Source: Gemmatimonadota bacterium (GTDB taxonomy: Bacteria; GCA-2686955). Taken from it: DNA of 16,307 nucleotides. The notes under the pieces were generated by a model. The model saw only the letters and a list, made by a program, of their open reading frames with translations. It did no database searches and was not told the origin of the DNA. The translations under genes were made by a program, and so were the position numbers. Shown here piece by piece: positions 6,430 through 16,307 of this stretch; the first letter of the stretch is position 1; each line of letters begins with the position of its first letter. The stretch is taken from NCBI GenBank assembly GCA_002686955.1, contig NYZA01000270.1:1-16307 (forward strand), read 5' to 3'.

Positions 6430-6656
6430 TCAGATCCGCCGGACCCGCCTCTCGATCCAGCGGCCGGGGGGCTCGTCGACGACGTGGGTGGAGTCCATCG
6501 CCAGCTCGAGTCGCGCCGCGCCGGGGCTAGACACCTGTTTGCCGTGGCGATCACCGTGCTCGACGCGGAAGAGGCCGTCATTCGCGCCATCGCCGTGAAG
6601 CCGCTCTCGGTGATTGCCGATGAGGTCGAGCTCACGCGCGCCGGAGCGGGCCCCTA
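6430..6656 (-). pseudogene. Decayed 3' end of a saccharopine-dehydrogenase-family gene
   Basis: This stretch resembles, in the same orientation, the last ~75 codons of the intact dehydrogenase at 10921-12066, including the stop codon in the same place (6432-6430). A 22-base block is identical (6471-6492 with 10962-10983), and by eye about three-quarters of positions match overall. Translation gives FTAMARMTASSASSTVIATA in one frame, against FSAMERMTAFPASIGVIAMA in the intact protein. The frame then changes to LELAMDSTHVVDE, against LELALDSTHVVDE, after a one-base deletion. A second indel lies near 6615-6630. The rest of the gene is missing, so this is a remnant and not a functional gene. Confidence 0.85.
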
Positions 6657-8123: not shown

Positions 8124-10577
8124 ATGGAACTCCGCGTTGCACCGATCGGGCCGTCTGTTGCCGGGTCGCTTCTGGCATACGCCGCGATGCTTCCGAGTGG
8201 AACGGCCACGACTCTCCACGTTCCCAGCGAGTTCGCGACGATTCAGTCCGCCATCGACGCTGCGACTCATGGGGATACAGCTCTGGTTCATCCCGGAACC
8301 TACGTCGAGACACTCGATTTTCTTGGTAAGGAGATCGTGGTCAGCGGAACCGCACCTTCCGACTCGATCGTGGTCGCGGGCACCGTAGTGGACGCCGGCG
8401 GCGCCGGCAGCGTTGTGCGCTTCGATAGCGGAGAAGGACCTGATGCGCTGATCACTGGCCTCACTCTGACCGGAGGCTCGGGGACCGCCCTGGGTGGCGA
8501 GGGCTCCTACGCCGGTGGCGGGATCTACTGCTTCGAATCCAGTCCTACGGTGCGCCGGTGTGTCGTATCAGAGAATGAAGCCTGGTGCGGCGGCGGCATC
8601 TGCCTGTGGCGTTCGAATGCCACGATCGACTCATGCACGATCATCGGCAACTGGGGAACTGGTCTCGACACGGCGAGCGGCGGTGGGATTGCCTGTGTGG
8701 ATTCGTGCGCACCGCTCATCGAGGAATCGCTCATCGTCGGCAATAACAACAACAACGGATTCGGCGGTGGTGTGGCCGTGCTTTGGGGTGCCTCTCCACT
8801 GTTGCGCGGGTGTGAAATTCGAGACAACCGAACATCAGGCAACAACTTCGTCGGAGGTGGAATCGGCTTTTTCGAAAGCGAGGGTGCCCTGCTGGATCGG
8901 TGCAGGATCGAGCAAAACGCGATTTCCCCTCACAGCTACACTCGCGGACTCGGGATCGGGGGCCTTCTCTCTACCGCCCTCATCCGGGACTCGGAGATCG
9001 TCAACCATCGAGACTACTGGGCCGCCGCCCTCTACTGGAAGGGTTCCTACTTGGCCATCGAATCGTGCCGGATCGCAGACAACAGGCACGGCATCTGGTG
9101 CGACGAATCGATCGTCGAAGTGACCGACACACGGATTGAAGACAACACCTTTACGCATGGCCGTGCCGCCGGCATCGATGCAACCGATTCGATCCTGCAT
9201 CTGTCGCGTTGTACGATTCGTCGGAACTTCCCATACTACTCGGAATCGAAGGGAGGGGGAATCTCTCTCTCGGGCGGAGAGCTCCATGTGATCGACAGCG
9301 ACATCCGCGACAATGGATCGTACTACGGCGGTGGTGCGCATGTACAGGGCGCCGAGCTCGTGCGCATGACGCGATGCCAGGTCACCGGTAATGGAGCCGT
9401 GGCCGGCGGAGGATTCTCGCTCTCTGAAGTGGCGACGGTCGTGATCGAAGATTGCGCGTTCAGAGACAACCGTGCAATTGGGTACTACGGAGGTGCGGGC
9501 GGGGCCATCTGGATCGATTCGAGCCGCACTATCGATCTCGATCGATGCACATTGGAGCACAACGAAGCCGCGCTCCGGGGTGGTGGGGCGTCGCTGCGTG
9601 GAACAGATGTTCGCGTCCACGGATGCAGGTTCGTCGACAACAGGACCGTCGGAACCCACTGGAATCCAGGGCAGAGTGGAGGTGGATTGCAGGTTGAAGG
9701 TGGTCGCGTCTCACTGGAATCGTGTGTGTTCGCGGGGAATGAGGCTGACTTGGCAGGGGGAGGCGTCTCGGGCTTTGCCGACACACTCGTAGTCGCAAAC
9801 TGCGAAGTTCGCAACAACACCCTGGTCAACAATGACACGAACGTCATGGGTGGGGGGCTGTATCTAGTCGCCGCGGACTCCCTGTACATTGCGAAGAGCG
9901 TGGTTTCCGGCAATAGCTCCGCCAACTATGGGGGTGGAGTCTATGCAAGCGCACCGTTTGTACTAATCAAGCACAGCAGCGTCGTCGACAACGATGTTCG
10001 AGGCGTCGGGACCGGCTACTACGGTGGGGGAGGGTTATGCATCACCGGCGAGAGGGTCGTGGCTATCAGAAACAGCACAGTTTTGCGAAATCGCGCGGGC
10101 GCGGGTGGCGGAATCACGAGCTTCGCCAACGAGACACGGATCGAAAACAGCGCTATCTCGGGCAACATCTCTTTGGATGACGATACGGCGGCCGTCTACG
10201 GTGTCGGCTGGGACAACTCATTCCAGGTGAGGAATACCATCGTCTGGGGCAACACCGGCGCCCAGATCGCCGGTTGGAACCCCGACGGCATCCACATACG
10301 TTACAGCAACATCGAAGCAGGCTGGCCAGGTGAGGGGAATATCGACGAAGATCCGCGCTTTCGCGCCCGCGGCGCCTACGAGGCCCTCTTGGCCCCCGGC
10401 TCCCGATGCATCGATTCGGGTGATCCCGAGCTCGAGGATGGCGTTTCCGACGATCACCGCCTCTGGCCGGATCGGTATCGCAATGCCGCGAGAAGCGACA
10501 TGGGGGCATACGGCGGTCCCTGGAACTACGGGTGGCTTCCGCCTCTTGCTCCCGCGGAATCTCGGGTGACTCGATGA
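8124..10577 (+). CDS. Secreted right-handed parallel beta-helix protein (intact paralog 1)
   Basis: 817 residues from the ATG at 8124. The N-terminus has a hydrophobic signal sequence ending near LPSGTA, followed by TTLHVPSEFATIQSAIDAA and VHPGTYVETLDFLGK, the standard opening of pectin-lyase-like parallel beta-helix proteins. The middle is a long run of coils with the recurring pattern GGGI/GGGL, then a small-residue turn, then C-x-I/V-x-x-N, for example CVVSENEAWCGGGICL and CEIRDNRTSGNNFVGGGI. The end is IEAGWPGEGNIDEDPRF and SDMGAYGGPWNYGW, a typical closing of these extracellular proteins. No catalytic residues, membrane anchor or sorting domain are recognised, so it may be a surface adhesin, a polysaccharide-binding protein or a lyase. 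It shares its N- and C-terminal sequences with the broken gene at 12179-14503, so the two are paralogs. Confidence 0.85.
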   Translation: MELRVAPIGPSVAGSLLAYAAMLPSGTATTLHVPSEFATIQSAIDAATHGDTALVHPGTYVETLDFLGKEIVVSGTAPSDSIVVAGTVVDAGGAGSVVRFDSGEGPDALITGLTLTGGSGTALGGEGSYAGGGIYCFESSPTVRRCVVSENEAWCGGGICLWRSNATIDSCTIIGNWGTGLDTASGGGIACVDSCAPLIEESLIVGNNNNNGFGGGVAVLWGASPLLRGCEIRDNRTSGNNFVGGGIGFFESEGALLDRCRIEQNAISPHSYTRGLGIGGLLSTALIRDSEIVNHRDYWAAALYWKGSYLAIESCRIADNRHGIWCDESIVEVTDTRIEDNTFTHGRAAGIDATDSILHLSRCTIRRNFPYYSESKGGGISLSGGELHVIDSDIRDNGSYYGGGAHVQGAELVRMTRCQVTGNGAVAGGGFSLSEVATVVIEDCAFRDNRAIGYYGGAGGAIWIDSSRTIDLDRCTLEHNEAALRGGGASLRGTDVRVHGCRFVDNRTVGTHWNPGQSGGGLQVEGGRVSLESCVFAGNEADLAGGGVSGFADTLVVANCEVRNNTLVNNDTNVMGGGLYLVAADSLYIAKSVVSGNSSANYGGGVYASAPFVLIKHSSVVDNDVRGVGTGYYGGGGLCITGERVVAIRNSTVLRNRAGAGGGITSFANETRIENSAISGNISLDDDTAAVYGVGWDNSFQVRNTIVWGNTGAQIAGWNPDGIHIRYSNIEAGWPGEGNIDEDPRFRARGAYEALLAPGSRCIDSGDPELEDGVSDDHRLWPDRYRNAARSDMGAYGGPWNYGWLPPLAPAESRVTR

Positions 10578-10920: not shown

Positions 10921-12066
10921 TCAGCTCCGCCGAACCCGCACCTCAATCCCGCGGCGGGGCAGCTCGTCGACGACGTGGGTGGAATCGAGCGCGAGCTCCA
11001 GTGGCACGGCACCGGGGGCAAGACGCCCGTGGGCCATGGCGATCACGCCGATCGACGCGGGGAAGGCCGTCATCCGCTCCATTGCGGAAAAGTCTGTCTC
11101 CTCGTCGTGATGGTCGATGATATCGATCTCGCATGAACCGCCATCCCCTTCGCAAACCACCCTCAGCACGACCAGATCGCGGTCGCCGGGGAAGTCCAGG
11201 GCGCGGCGGGCGAGCGTGTGGAAGACGGAGCGGGGGACGACCTCCATGCCCTCGACCTCCACCGGTTCGAGATCGAGAAACCCCATATCGCGGAGTGTCT
11301 TCATGCGCTCGAAATGTCCGGGGTAACGCAGGGTCTTGTAGTCGAAATCGGCGATCCGACCGGCGAGGGACCAGGGACAGGTCGAGGTGCCGCCGCTCGT
11401 GGTGAACGCTTCGAGGCGCCCGATCGGTTTCGGGAAGTCGACCGTCTCGAGCTCGGAAAAGGTGTCGATCTCCTCCCGGCGGCCATCGCGCAGAACGACC
11501 GCCTTGCCGAAATACTCGTTGGTGAGCCCTTCGACGCTGAACACCAGCTTGTAGCCGAGTGGAGGGCGAGGATCCTGGGGAAGTCCACCGCAACGGATTC
11601 GCACCGAGCGGGGGGAGTCGACCCGGTCCATCGCGTAAACCGCGAGGCTGTTTCCGAGCCCCGGGGCCAGTCCCAGATCGGGGAGGACGGTGACTCCGGC
11701 GGCCGCCGCCAGATCGTGGAGCTCGAGCTCCGCGCGAACGATCTCGGTGTTGCCGCCGAGATCGCCGAAGCTGGAACCGACATCGACGGCGGCCTCCGCG
11801 AGGCCGAGGTTCAGGTGATAGGGCGCCGCGGAGAGGGTGGCCTTCGAGCCCGCCAGAGCGTCGCGCACACCGACCGGATCGCGCGCGTCGATCGTGCCGG
11901 GCCTTGCTAGGTCGCCCTCGACGAGTCGGTTGATCCGATCCGCCGCGGCTTCGGCCCGCTCGGAATCGACATCGAGCATCCGGATTTCATCGGCGCCCGC
12001 GAATCGGGCCATATCGTATCCGGCCGCGGTGCCCTGCATGCCCGCGCCGATGATGGTCAGCCTCAT
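10921..12066 (-). CDS. Saccharopine dehydrogenase-family oxidoreductase, L-lysine 6-dehydrogenase-like
   Basis: 381 residues, with AAGGAGA (12075-12081) eight bases before the ATG. The N-terminal Rossmann fold is clear: LTIIGAGMQG (3-12) for dinucleotide binding and an acidic end of strand two, MLDVDSERA (30-38). The catalytic half has PDLGLAPGLGNSLA (129-142), FSVEGLTNEYFG (176-187), SGGTST (224-229) and DYKTLRYPGH (242-251). This order and spacing, and the length of about 380, fit L-lysine 6-dehydrogenase and its relatives better than the larger saccharopine dehydrogenases. The likely reaction is NAD(P)-linked oxidation of lysine or a related amino acid in the cytoplasm. The substrate is inferred. 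It is divergent from the second beta-helix gene with a 112-base gap. A decayed copy of its 3' end lies at 6430-6656. Confidence 0.87.
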   Translation of the reverse strand: MRLTIIGAGMQGTAAGYDMARFAGADEIRMLDVDSERAEAAADRINRLVEGDLARPGTIDARDPVGVRDALAGSKATLSAAPYHLNLGLAEAAVDVGSSFGDLGGNTEIVRAELELHDLAAAAGVTVLPDLGLAPGLGNSLAVYAMDRVDSPRSVRIRCGGLPQDPRPPLGYKLVFSVEGLTNEYFGKAVVLRDGRREEIDTFSELETVDFPKPIGRLEAFTTSGGTSTCPWSLAGRIADFDYKTLRYPGHFERMKTLRDMGFLDLEPVEVEGMEVVPRSVFHTLARRALDFPGDRDLVVLRVVCEGDGGSCEIDIIDHHDEETDFSAMERMTAFPASIGVIAMAHGRLAPGAVPLELALDSTHVVDELPRRGIEVRVRRS

Positions 12067-12166
12067 CGAAATTGTCTCCTTCGGGTCGACATGGAGAGCG
12101 CGATTCTACTCTCCGCCCGGAAACTTGGTTACGCTGTTCGCACATCACAATAGTGGACTCGCCCTC

Positions 12167-12174
12167 GAGGAGGT
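12167..12174 (+). promoter_or_regulatory. Strong ribosome binding site of the second beta-helix gene
   Basis: GAGGAGGT ends four bases before the ATG at 12179, which is followed directly by a signal peptide. It fixes the start and shows that the translation start is still in good condition, although the gene carries two in-frame TGA codons. Confidence 0.8.
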
Positions 12175-12478
12175 AGCCATGAAGCCGCTGGATCTCACTT
12201 TGATCGCCACGCTCCTCTTTCTCGGCCCCGTCCACCCCCGCGCCGCGACGATTCACGTGCCGAGCGATGCCCCCACGATTCAGGGCGCCATCGACACCGC
12301 CATCGACGGCGACATCGTGGTGGTACACCCCGGCACCTATATCGAGACCCTGAACTTCCTCGGGAAAGGGGTCGTCGTCACCGGGACCGCTCCCCGGGAT
12401 TCGACGGTCGTGGCTCGCACGGTGGTCGATGCGATGGCGAGCGAGGAAGAGCCGGCGAGTGTCGTGACTTTCGAGTCG

Positions 12479-12481
12479 TGA
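12479..12481 (+). other. First in-frame TGA, at a glycine position
   Basis: The codons read TTC GAG TCG TGA GAG AGC. The paralog at 8124 has FDSGEG then ITGLTL, where this gene has FES-stop-ES then LAGLTL. The stop falls on the Gly. The frame stays open and beta-helix-like on both sides. Confidence 0.85.
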
Positions 12482-13276
12482 GAGAGCTCGACTTCGGTGC
12501 TCGCGGGTCTGACCTTGATCGGTGGCACGGGGAGGTTGATGTCGCTCGCGCATTTCGGAGAAGCGCGCACGGTCGGTGGCGGCGTGGCCTGCCTCAATGC
12601 TTCCAAGCCCCGTCTCTCGCATCTGATCGTACGCGACAACCGAACCCTCGGAGACAGCTGGGGCGCAGGCGGCGGCGTCTACTGTAGCGATTCCTCCGAT
12701 CCAACACTTACCAGCTGCACCATCACAGGGAACCACGCTTCTACATACGGGGGAGGGCGCTACTGCTTTTATTCATCTCCGACTCTGCGGGAGTGCACGA
12801 TCGTTGGCAACGACTCCAAGTATCAAGGCGGCGGAGTCGATTGCTACTACTCTTCTGCAACGCTAACCGACTGCGCCATCAATGCCAACAGTAGCTGGAG
12901 GCAAGGTGGCGGAGTCTACAGCGTGGACTCTGCGCCAAGCCTCACCAACTGCACGATCATTGGCAGCTCCGGCGTGGAAGACGGTGGCGGCCTTTTTCTC
13001 ATTCGCTCCTCGCCGCGCCTTTTCGGCTGCACAATAGCGGGCAACTCAAGTACCGACAACGGTGGCGCACTCTACTGCGCGGGTTCCTCGCCGATTTTTA
13101 CGAACTGCACCATCACGGGAAACTCGGCGGAACGGGATGGAGACGGGCTCTACCTCAGCTCCGGTGACGGGTCGACCTTCACGAACTGCATCATATGGGA
13201 CAATGCGCAACAGGAGATCTTCTCTCTATCGGGCACCACGTACTTCGCCTTCTGCGATATCGAAGGGGGTTGGGAG

Positions 13277-13279
13277 TGA
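13277..13279 (+). other. Second in-frame TGA, at a glycine position
   Basis: The codons read TGG GAG TGA GAA GGA AAT ATC. The paralog has GWPGEGNI and module two of the same gene has GWAGEGNI, so the stop replaces a Gly conserved in both. Both TGA sites share the hexamer GTGAGA. Confidence 0.85.
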
Positions 13280-14503
13280 GAAGGAAATATCGACCAGAAT
13301 CCCCGCTTTTGCGATGCAACCTGCGGGGAGTTCCGAGAGCTCGGACTCGCTTTCGATTCGCCATGTCTCGGCACAGGCAAGGGAGGTGCCAATATCGGTG
13401 CATGGCCCAGTAGATGTGAGTACCCACGGGAGATCACGCCGGCAATCATCGAAGTTCCCGCGGACCACGCCACCCTACGCGAAGCCTTTGATTCCGCCTG
13501 TGACAGCGATACTATTCTCGTCGCACCGGGCACGTACGTGGACTCCCGGATCAAGATCCCGAATCTGGAGCTCACGATCCTGGGGTGGGATCCTGAAGAT
13601 CCGGAGATCGTGAACGCAACAGTGCTCGACGGGGGCGGTGAAGACGTCATCATCATGGGGCCCACTCCCCTGTCGAGCGACGCGACGATCTCGGGCATCA
13701 CCATCACCGGGGGCGGCCGGGGAATCTTCTGCAGCGAAACCTCCGCTTCTATCCGGCATTGCGTGATCAAGGGGAACACCGATAGCGGACTCTATTGTTA
13801 CGATGCATCCCCCAGCGTCACGAACTGCATTATATCGGAAAACACAGCCACGAGACATGGAGGCGGCGGAGTCTACTGTATATCTCAATCATCGCCGATC
13901 TTTGCGAATTGCACAATTACCGAGAACTTCGTCCCTGGAGACGGTGGCGGCCTTTTTGTTAGCGGCTCGGCATCGATGCAAAACTGTATTGTCTCGAGGA
14001 ACACAGCGTCGGAGCTCGGCGGGGGACTCTATTGCTACTTCGGTAATACAGCTCTGATGAACTGTACAATTACCGAAAACCGCGCATCGGAAGCGGGCGG
14101 AGGGCTGTACAACAGGCGCGGCGCGCCAATCCTCACCAACTGCATCTTCTGGGGCGACTTCCCGCGGGAGTTCGATGTGGAGGAGGACTCGCTCTCGGTC
14201 ACATATTCCGACATCCAAGGCGGATGGGCCGGCGAAGGAAACATCAGTCGCGACCCCGCTCTCGTCGAGTGGTTGGGATTCGAATCGATGCCGAACCCGA
14301 TCGATCGGTGGATCGGCGACACCTTCACACCGCGATCCTCTTGTATCGACGCTGGCGATCCCTCCATCACCGACGGCATCTCGGATTCCCACCCGAACTG
14401 GCCGAACTGGTATCCCAACGGAACACGGAGTGACATGGGCGCGTACGGCGGACCGGGCAACGGTGGCTGGCTTGGCGGGCAATTCCTTTCCCGGCAACCA
14501 TGA

Positions 14504-15205: not shown

Positions 15206-15575
15206 TCCCCACCATTGTCCCGATCTCGTTCTCCGGCGCGAGGATGTCTTTGCCGTGAAATCGGATCCGACAAAGGAGCTCCTTCGCTTCCTCTCGTCCT
15301 ACGCGACTGGACGCCTCACCCCTCCCCAGCGGTGTTACCGCAGCCCTCTCCTTCTCTTTTGCACCTCGCCAACCGTGGTAGACGGAAATAGCCGGCTCCG
15401 TGCATGAAAGTTGACACCCAGTCGGCTACATCCTCTCCCGGCGGCGCTCAACCCAAAGTTGAAAAACGACTTATCACGTCAAGTGCGATCAGGCGCGCTG
15501 CTTGCGCGTACTGAGGAGAGCCGTGGCGCAAGTCAAGACTCTCGCGCCGATCGTCAACACCAATTGGAGCCTCGC
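15206..15575. other. Intergenic, with one inverted repeat
   Basis: No gene could be supported over these 370 bases. A TTGACA (15411-15416) has no convincing -10 at the right distance. CTTGCGC (15501-15507) and GCGCAAG (15526-15532) form a 7-bp inverted repeat with an 18-base loop, 44 bases upstream of the FG-GAP gene, and could be an operator or leader structure. Confidence 0.4.
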
Positions 15576-16307
15576 ATGACGCGTAGAACCCACTGCAACA
15601 CTCACACTCCCCCCCTGGCGCTTCTGCTCGCCGGCGCGGTCGGCCATTCGATCGACGCCACCGCCCTGCAGATCGGTCAGGCCGAAACCGACCTGAGGGG
15701 ACCGATCCTCACACGATGGGCGCCAACACCGTTGGCTTCATCTCCGTCGCGCACGGCGGCAACGCCGGCGGCATCGGCGGTCCGTTCGTGACCGTCGCGA
15801 ACGCTTTCGATCCGACGACCGCAACCGAAGCCGGCGTTGTGTATCTGACGAAGGCCTCCGGTGCCTCGACCATCGATCTCAGCACAAGCACCGCGACCAT
15901 CTACGGTGCCGGCGCCGCGGATCAGTTCGGCTTCTCGGTGGTGTCGGGTGACGTCAAAGGAGACGGAACGGATGATCTGCTCATCGGAGCGCCCATGACC
16001 TATTTCCCGCGCCCGGGCGCGGCATTTCTGTTCTACGGCCCCGTGCAGGGCACACTGACCGCCAACGATGCCGACGTCACTTTCGTCAGCGAGATGATCG
16101 CGGATAAGGCGGGTCGATCGGTGGCGCTCATCAGTGACGTCACCGGCGATGGTCGCCCTGAGGTCGCTGTCGGTGCACCGAGGTCGGGCATGGTCAACTA
16201 CAGCCCGGATATCTCACGAGATTCCCTAGCGAGACCGTGCAGGTTCTTGTCCTGCCGGTGCTTCGTGCCGGTTCGACGCGGAGGCGTAGTGGTGCTACGT
16301 CGCACAA
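15576..16307 (+). pseudogene. Secreted FG-GAP (integrin-alpha-like) repeat protein, apparently frameshifted and cut by the window edge
   Basis: The ATG at 15576 follows TTGGAG at about eight bases and opens a signal-peptide-like stretch, THTPPLALLLAGAVGHSIDA, then LQIGQAETDL. Near 15697-15700 (GGGG) one base seems to be missing. With it, the text runs DLRGTDPHTMGANTVGFISV into a frame that stays open to the window end. That frame has FG-GAP calcium-loop repeats: FGFSVVSGDVKGDGTDDLLI ending GAP, FYGP, then GRSVALISDVTGDGRPEVAV ending GAP. Such proteins form extracellular beta-propellers with DxDxDG-like calcium loops and often act in adhesion or as passengers of surface systems. Beyond about 16205 the repeat pattern is lost, which may mean another frame error or the end of reliable sequence. 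An alternative is a start at ATG 15716 without a signal peptide. Confidence 0.65.
16253..16299. repeat. Small repeats at the right end of the window
   Basis: TGCCGGT occurs twice (16253-16259 and 16266-16272). CGTAG (16285-16289) pairs with CTACG (16295-16299) around a 5-base loop. They lie where the FG-GAP reading loses its pattern, and may belong to a dispersed repeat at which assembly stopped. Confidence 0.3.

Follow-up and report, generated by a model that had tools for sequence, protein, structure and literature searches.

Two in-frame TGA codons probably mark a recently inactivated beta-helix gene in a Gemmatimonadota bacterium

Introduction

In-frame stop codons occur widely in bacterial genes that are otherwise intact, and most of them are short-lived (Belinky et al. 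2021, PMC7918605), so a gene interrupted in this way is an ordinary case. In other bacterial systems an in-frame TGA is decoded. Selenoproteins carry such a codon at the selenocysteine site, and nearly all of them have cysteine homologs (PMC13188914), while Gracilibacteria and Absconditabacteria read UGA as glycine (PMC8629427, PMC4032931). Here we analysed a window of 16,307 nucleotides, positions 1 to 16,307 of contig NYZA01000270.1 of a Gemmatimonadota bacterium, in which a gene at 12179–14503 on the plus strand is interrupted by two TGA codons at glycine positions.

This gene resembles the described nonsense-containing genes and pseudogenes (PMC7918605) in having its stops inside an otherwise intact coding frame; a dN/dS test was used in that study, whereas here the gene was judged by coil-profile and codon-bias scores. 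As in right-handed beta-helix proteins (PF13229; NosD, PF05048), both of its modules score far above the PF13229 cut-off and contain the repeated coil GGGxYC..SP..xxCxIxxN, but this copy is broken by two TGAs and belongs to a family that is very large in this genome. It shares with bacterial selenoproteins an in-frame TGA in a genome carrying SelB, tRNA-Sec and a TGA-containing selD, but its homologs have glycine rather than cysteine and neither TGA is followed by a strict bSECIS. It shares glycine positions with the Gracilibacteria and Absconditabacteria code, but its genome is GC-rich, uses TGA as the main stop and retains release factor 2 (RF2).

Results

A single frame of 775 codons was found from the ATG at 12179 to the terminal TGA at 14501. 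Translation revealed TGA at codon 101 (12479–12481) and codon 367 (13277–13279) and nothing else before codon 775, in agreement with the initial annotation, which had described one frame with two internal TGAs and no TAA, TAG or frameshift. The remaining frames across the same stretch contained 14 and 13 stops in the forward direction and 6, 18 and 37 in the reverse, indicating that the open frame did not arise by chance, and GC3 stayed high throughout its three open parts. The ribosome-binding region CGAGGAGGTAGCC (12162–12178, plus strand) lies ahead of the ATG, with GAGGAGG immediately upstream, as had been proposed from the sequence; the signal peptide proposed at the same time was also recognizable, the N-terminus being signal-peptide-like when judged by eye rather than by a predictor.

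All three open parts belong to one protein. The first (12179–12478, codons 1–100, GC3 0.84) encodes an N-terminus resembling a signal peptide together with the beginning of the beta-helix protein, and matches the N-termini of the family. The second (12482–13276, codons 102–366, GC3 0.71) consists of beta-helix coils that match Pfam Beta_helix (PF13229, E 1.4e-20) and score like those of intact paralogs. The third (13280–14503, codons 368–774 plus the terminal TGA, GC3 0.69) combines a further beta-helix module (E 1.3e-16 for PF13229) with the conserved C-terminal motif of the family. The two Pfam matches reached 74.0 and 61.1 bits against a gathering cut-off of 25.9, demonstrating that the product is a right-handed beta-helix protein.

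When family members of the same genome were aligned, the column at codon 101 held glycine in 31 of 51 sequences and cysteine in one, and the column at codon 367 held glycine in 30 of 33 and cysteine in none. This bore out the earlier observation that both TGAs align to glycine in the paralog at 8124–10577, an intact plus-strand member of the family (PF13229, E 2.7e-41). The second TGA also aligns to a glycine of the gene's own second module ('GGWAGEGN' compared with 'GGWE*EGN'), and the sequence GTGAGA is common to both sites, again as first described. We then computed how surprising this pattern is. About 3% of random point changes in the gene yield a stop, and glycine-to-TGA changes account for 9–10% of stop-giving and 25–31% of TGA-giving changes. 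The probability that two random nonsense changes are both glycine-to-TGA is thus about 0.01, or 0.06–0.09 if both give TGA, so that the double pattern is only slightly out of the ordinary, and it was singled out post hoc.

The sequence behind the TGAs showed no sign of ageing. Mean coil-profile scores were 38.0 and 34.3 behind the first and second TGA (leave-one-out median of intact paralogs, 34.1), and synonymous codon bias was 0.127 and 0.124 as compared with 0.123 in the paralog at 8124, although such scores do not distinguish a young pseudogene from a functional gene. These intact-like values indicate that the TGAs at 12479 and 13277 are young, or else are not real DNA. The initial annotation had argued that a randomly decaying gene should also gather indels; this argument is weak for a young lesion, since codon bias and profile scores that are still intact-like imply that there has been too little time for indels, and in this genome indels are indeed found in sibling copies. 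Two substitutions of the middle part, GGGR and GDG, seemed unusual at about 0.7–0.8% each among paralogs but were not counted as evidence, the overall coil score of that part being above the family median. No orthologue of the gene was found by DNA search of 40 relatives or by a scan of genome contigs with the read-through protein, in a comparison where two genomes represented the phylum.

The family gave 193 matches in this genome and 110 in the only related genome examined, and intact paralogs are numerous. Several other copies were found to be broken when three-frame translations were read by eye. The copy on contig C264 is interrupted by TAG, TAA and a frameshift, those on C30 and C5 by frameshifts, and that on C176 by a frameshift close to its C-terminal motif. 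On C194 (L058, 3110–5591) two beta-helix genes lie in tandem; the pair was duplicated recently, and its second copy is apparently frameshifted at both ends. These siblings look like true decay, mostly by frameshift. No TGA was seen inside the matched region of the other family members among the family matches of the genome, and the TGAs counted by the search in those members proved, where checked, to be terminators behind the conserved C-terminal motif.

The divergent neighbour of the interrupted gene is an intact saccharopine-dehydrogenase-like protein (10921–12066, minus strand). At 6436–6642, also on the minus strand, lies what remains of the 3′ end of another saccharopine-dehydrogenase-like gene; it is frameshifted and has 49% protein identity to the intact copy, suggesting an old local duplication. 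A scan of genome contigs with the dehydrogenase returned distant loci only, the closest of these in a Gemmatimonadetes-labelled MAG, on whose contig no beta-helix gene was present beside the dehydrogenase homolog. An FG-GAP repeat protein (PF01839) occupies 15567–16307 on the plus strand, where the contig ends; directly upstream, a stretch resembling a signal peptide lies in a different frame, so that this neighbour, too, may carry a frameshift. The decayed siblings and the dehydrogenase remnant point to duplication followed by loss as the ordinary course in this genome, and with 193 family matches the genome should be able to do without a single copy.

Base-calling error had been offered from the start as one account of the two TGAs. 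One or both could be errors in the consensus of the metagenome assembly, or could stem from minority alleles or collapsed strains, with the gene intact in the organism. The assembly is a fragmented draft of 270 contigs at 84.5% completeness, intact paralogs are many, and the lack of protein-level or codon-level decay behind the TGAs would be expected of such an artefact. However, two independent single-base errors that both produce TGA within 2.3 kb would be unusual, and the other broken copies of the family resemble genuine decay. We therefore consider this explanation possible but unlikely.

We next examined whether TGA is a stop in this genome. Among 334 non-overlapping frames of at least 300 codons in about 765 kb of the genome's contigs, 201 ended in TGA, 107 in TAG and 26 in TAA, and RF2 (prfB) was present (501 bits; cut-off 370), showing that TGA serves as a stop. 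Coding-like in-frame continuations followed 13 of 253 TGA, 16 of 154 TAG and 3 of 26 TAA stops, so that continuations were not enriched behind TGA relative to TAG or TAA and no TGA-specific readthrough signature was found; the threshold of this screen misses both window TGAs, and it addresses a general habit of readthrough rather than single cases. These results weigh on the proposal that UGA is read through by a near-cognate tRNA, in a programmed or tolerated manner, to yield a truncated product together with some full-length protein. The frame does remain open and codon-biased behind both TGAs, and cases of bacterial in-frame stops subject to purifying selection are on record (PMC7918605). 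Yet besides the role of TGA as main stop, the presence of RF2 and the absence of enriched continuations, no TGA was seen within the matched region of the other family members, where those checked proved to be terminators, two leaky stops in series would be expected to yield very little product, and the 100-residue stub has no evident use. Readthrough in this general form is improbable, and the fuller proposal, in which a genome that separately decodes UGA as selenocysteine also keeps this gene functional by UGA bypass at both conserved glycines and so makes a rare full-length surface protein, is slightly more doubtful still.

The organism itself very likely uses selenocysteine. SelB (contig C119) scores above the curated cut-off, a tRNA-Sec with anticodon UCA lies on contig C140, and selD (contig C248, L139:1531) carries an in-frame TGA at the usual selenocysteine site after '...LVPAGG', with a strong 7-bp hairpin with a GGUCG loop 26 nt downstream that fits the strict bSECIS form. 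These elements indicate that UGA can very likely be recoded in this organism, and they are what would favour selenocysteine at one or both window TGAs. A bSECIS was defined as a hairpin 16–37 nt downstream of the codon, with a G[G/U] apical loop in the strict form. Both window TGAs fit the loose model taken from PMC13188914, but in intact paralogs it also fitted 28.5% of random codons and 24% of glycine codons, and it fitted 23% of true TGA stops. Neither the strict G[G/U]-loop form nor a GGU-loop hairpin was found at 12479 or 13277. Since the only fit was a loose one at about the background rate, and since the homologs have glycine at the aligned positions where cysteine would be expected, selenocysteine insertion here is highly improbable.

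A code in which the organism decodes UGA as glycine would account for the conserved columns at both TGAs, but with most genes terminated by TGA, RF2 retained, a window GC of 63% and tRNA-Sec as the sole UCA-anticodon tRNA found (by itself a weak test, as the 21 ordinary tRNAs recovered included none for glycine), this possibility is excluded for practical purposes.

Discussion

The gene at 12179–14503 is probably a recently inactivated copy of the large beta-helix family. This reading is favoured by the normal use of TGA as a stop, the presence of RF2, the lack of TGA-enriched continuations, the decayed siblings, the redundancy of the family, and the codon bias and coil scores that remain intact-like. 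Under the organism's own code the two premature stops truncate a homologous frame, which is one mark of a pseudogene. Against a young pseudogene weighs the occurrence of two nonsense changes, both at glycine, without an indel or any other stop. Of the explanations first put forward, recent G-to-T changes are therefore the best supported, in the form of a young pseudogene, while readthrough gained no positive support in view of RF2, the predominance of TGA stops, the continuation screen and the absence of a canonical bSECIS; base-calling error is possible.

We infer that the organism's DNA does carry the TGAs and that they abolish the function of the gene. The locus would be a member of a large family of secreted right-handed beta-helix proteins, one that is itself duplicating, and would recently have been inactivated when two independent point changes replaced glycine codons by TGA. 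Ribosomes starting at the ATG at 12179 would then make only a 100-residue stub, consisting of the signal peptide and the first portion of the helix, and any reinitiation downstream would start in open parts that lack a signal peptide, so that no exported protein would be expected.

If readthrough were nevertheless true, the gene would be an unusual example of a surface protein made by bypassing UGA twice. Ordinary gene death is what stop usage, RF2, the absent canonical bSECIS and the decaying siblings indicate. The locus thus gives reason for caution, as TGA at glycine positions can mimic recoding when the genome is GC-rich and carries the machinery for selenocysteine.
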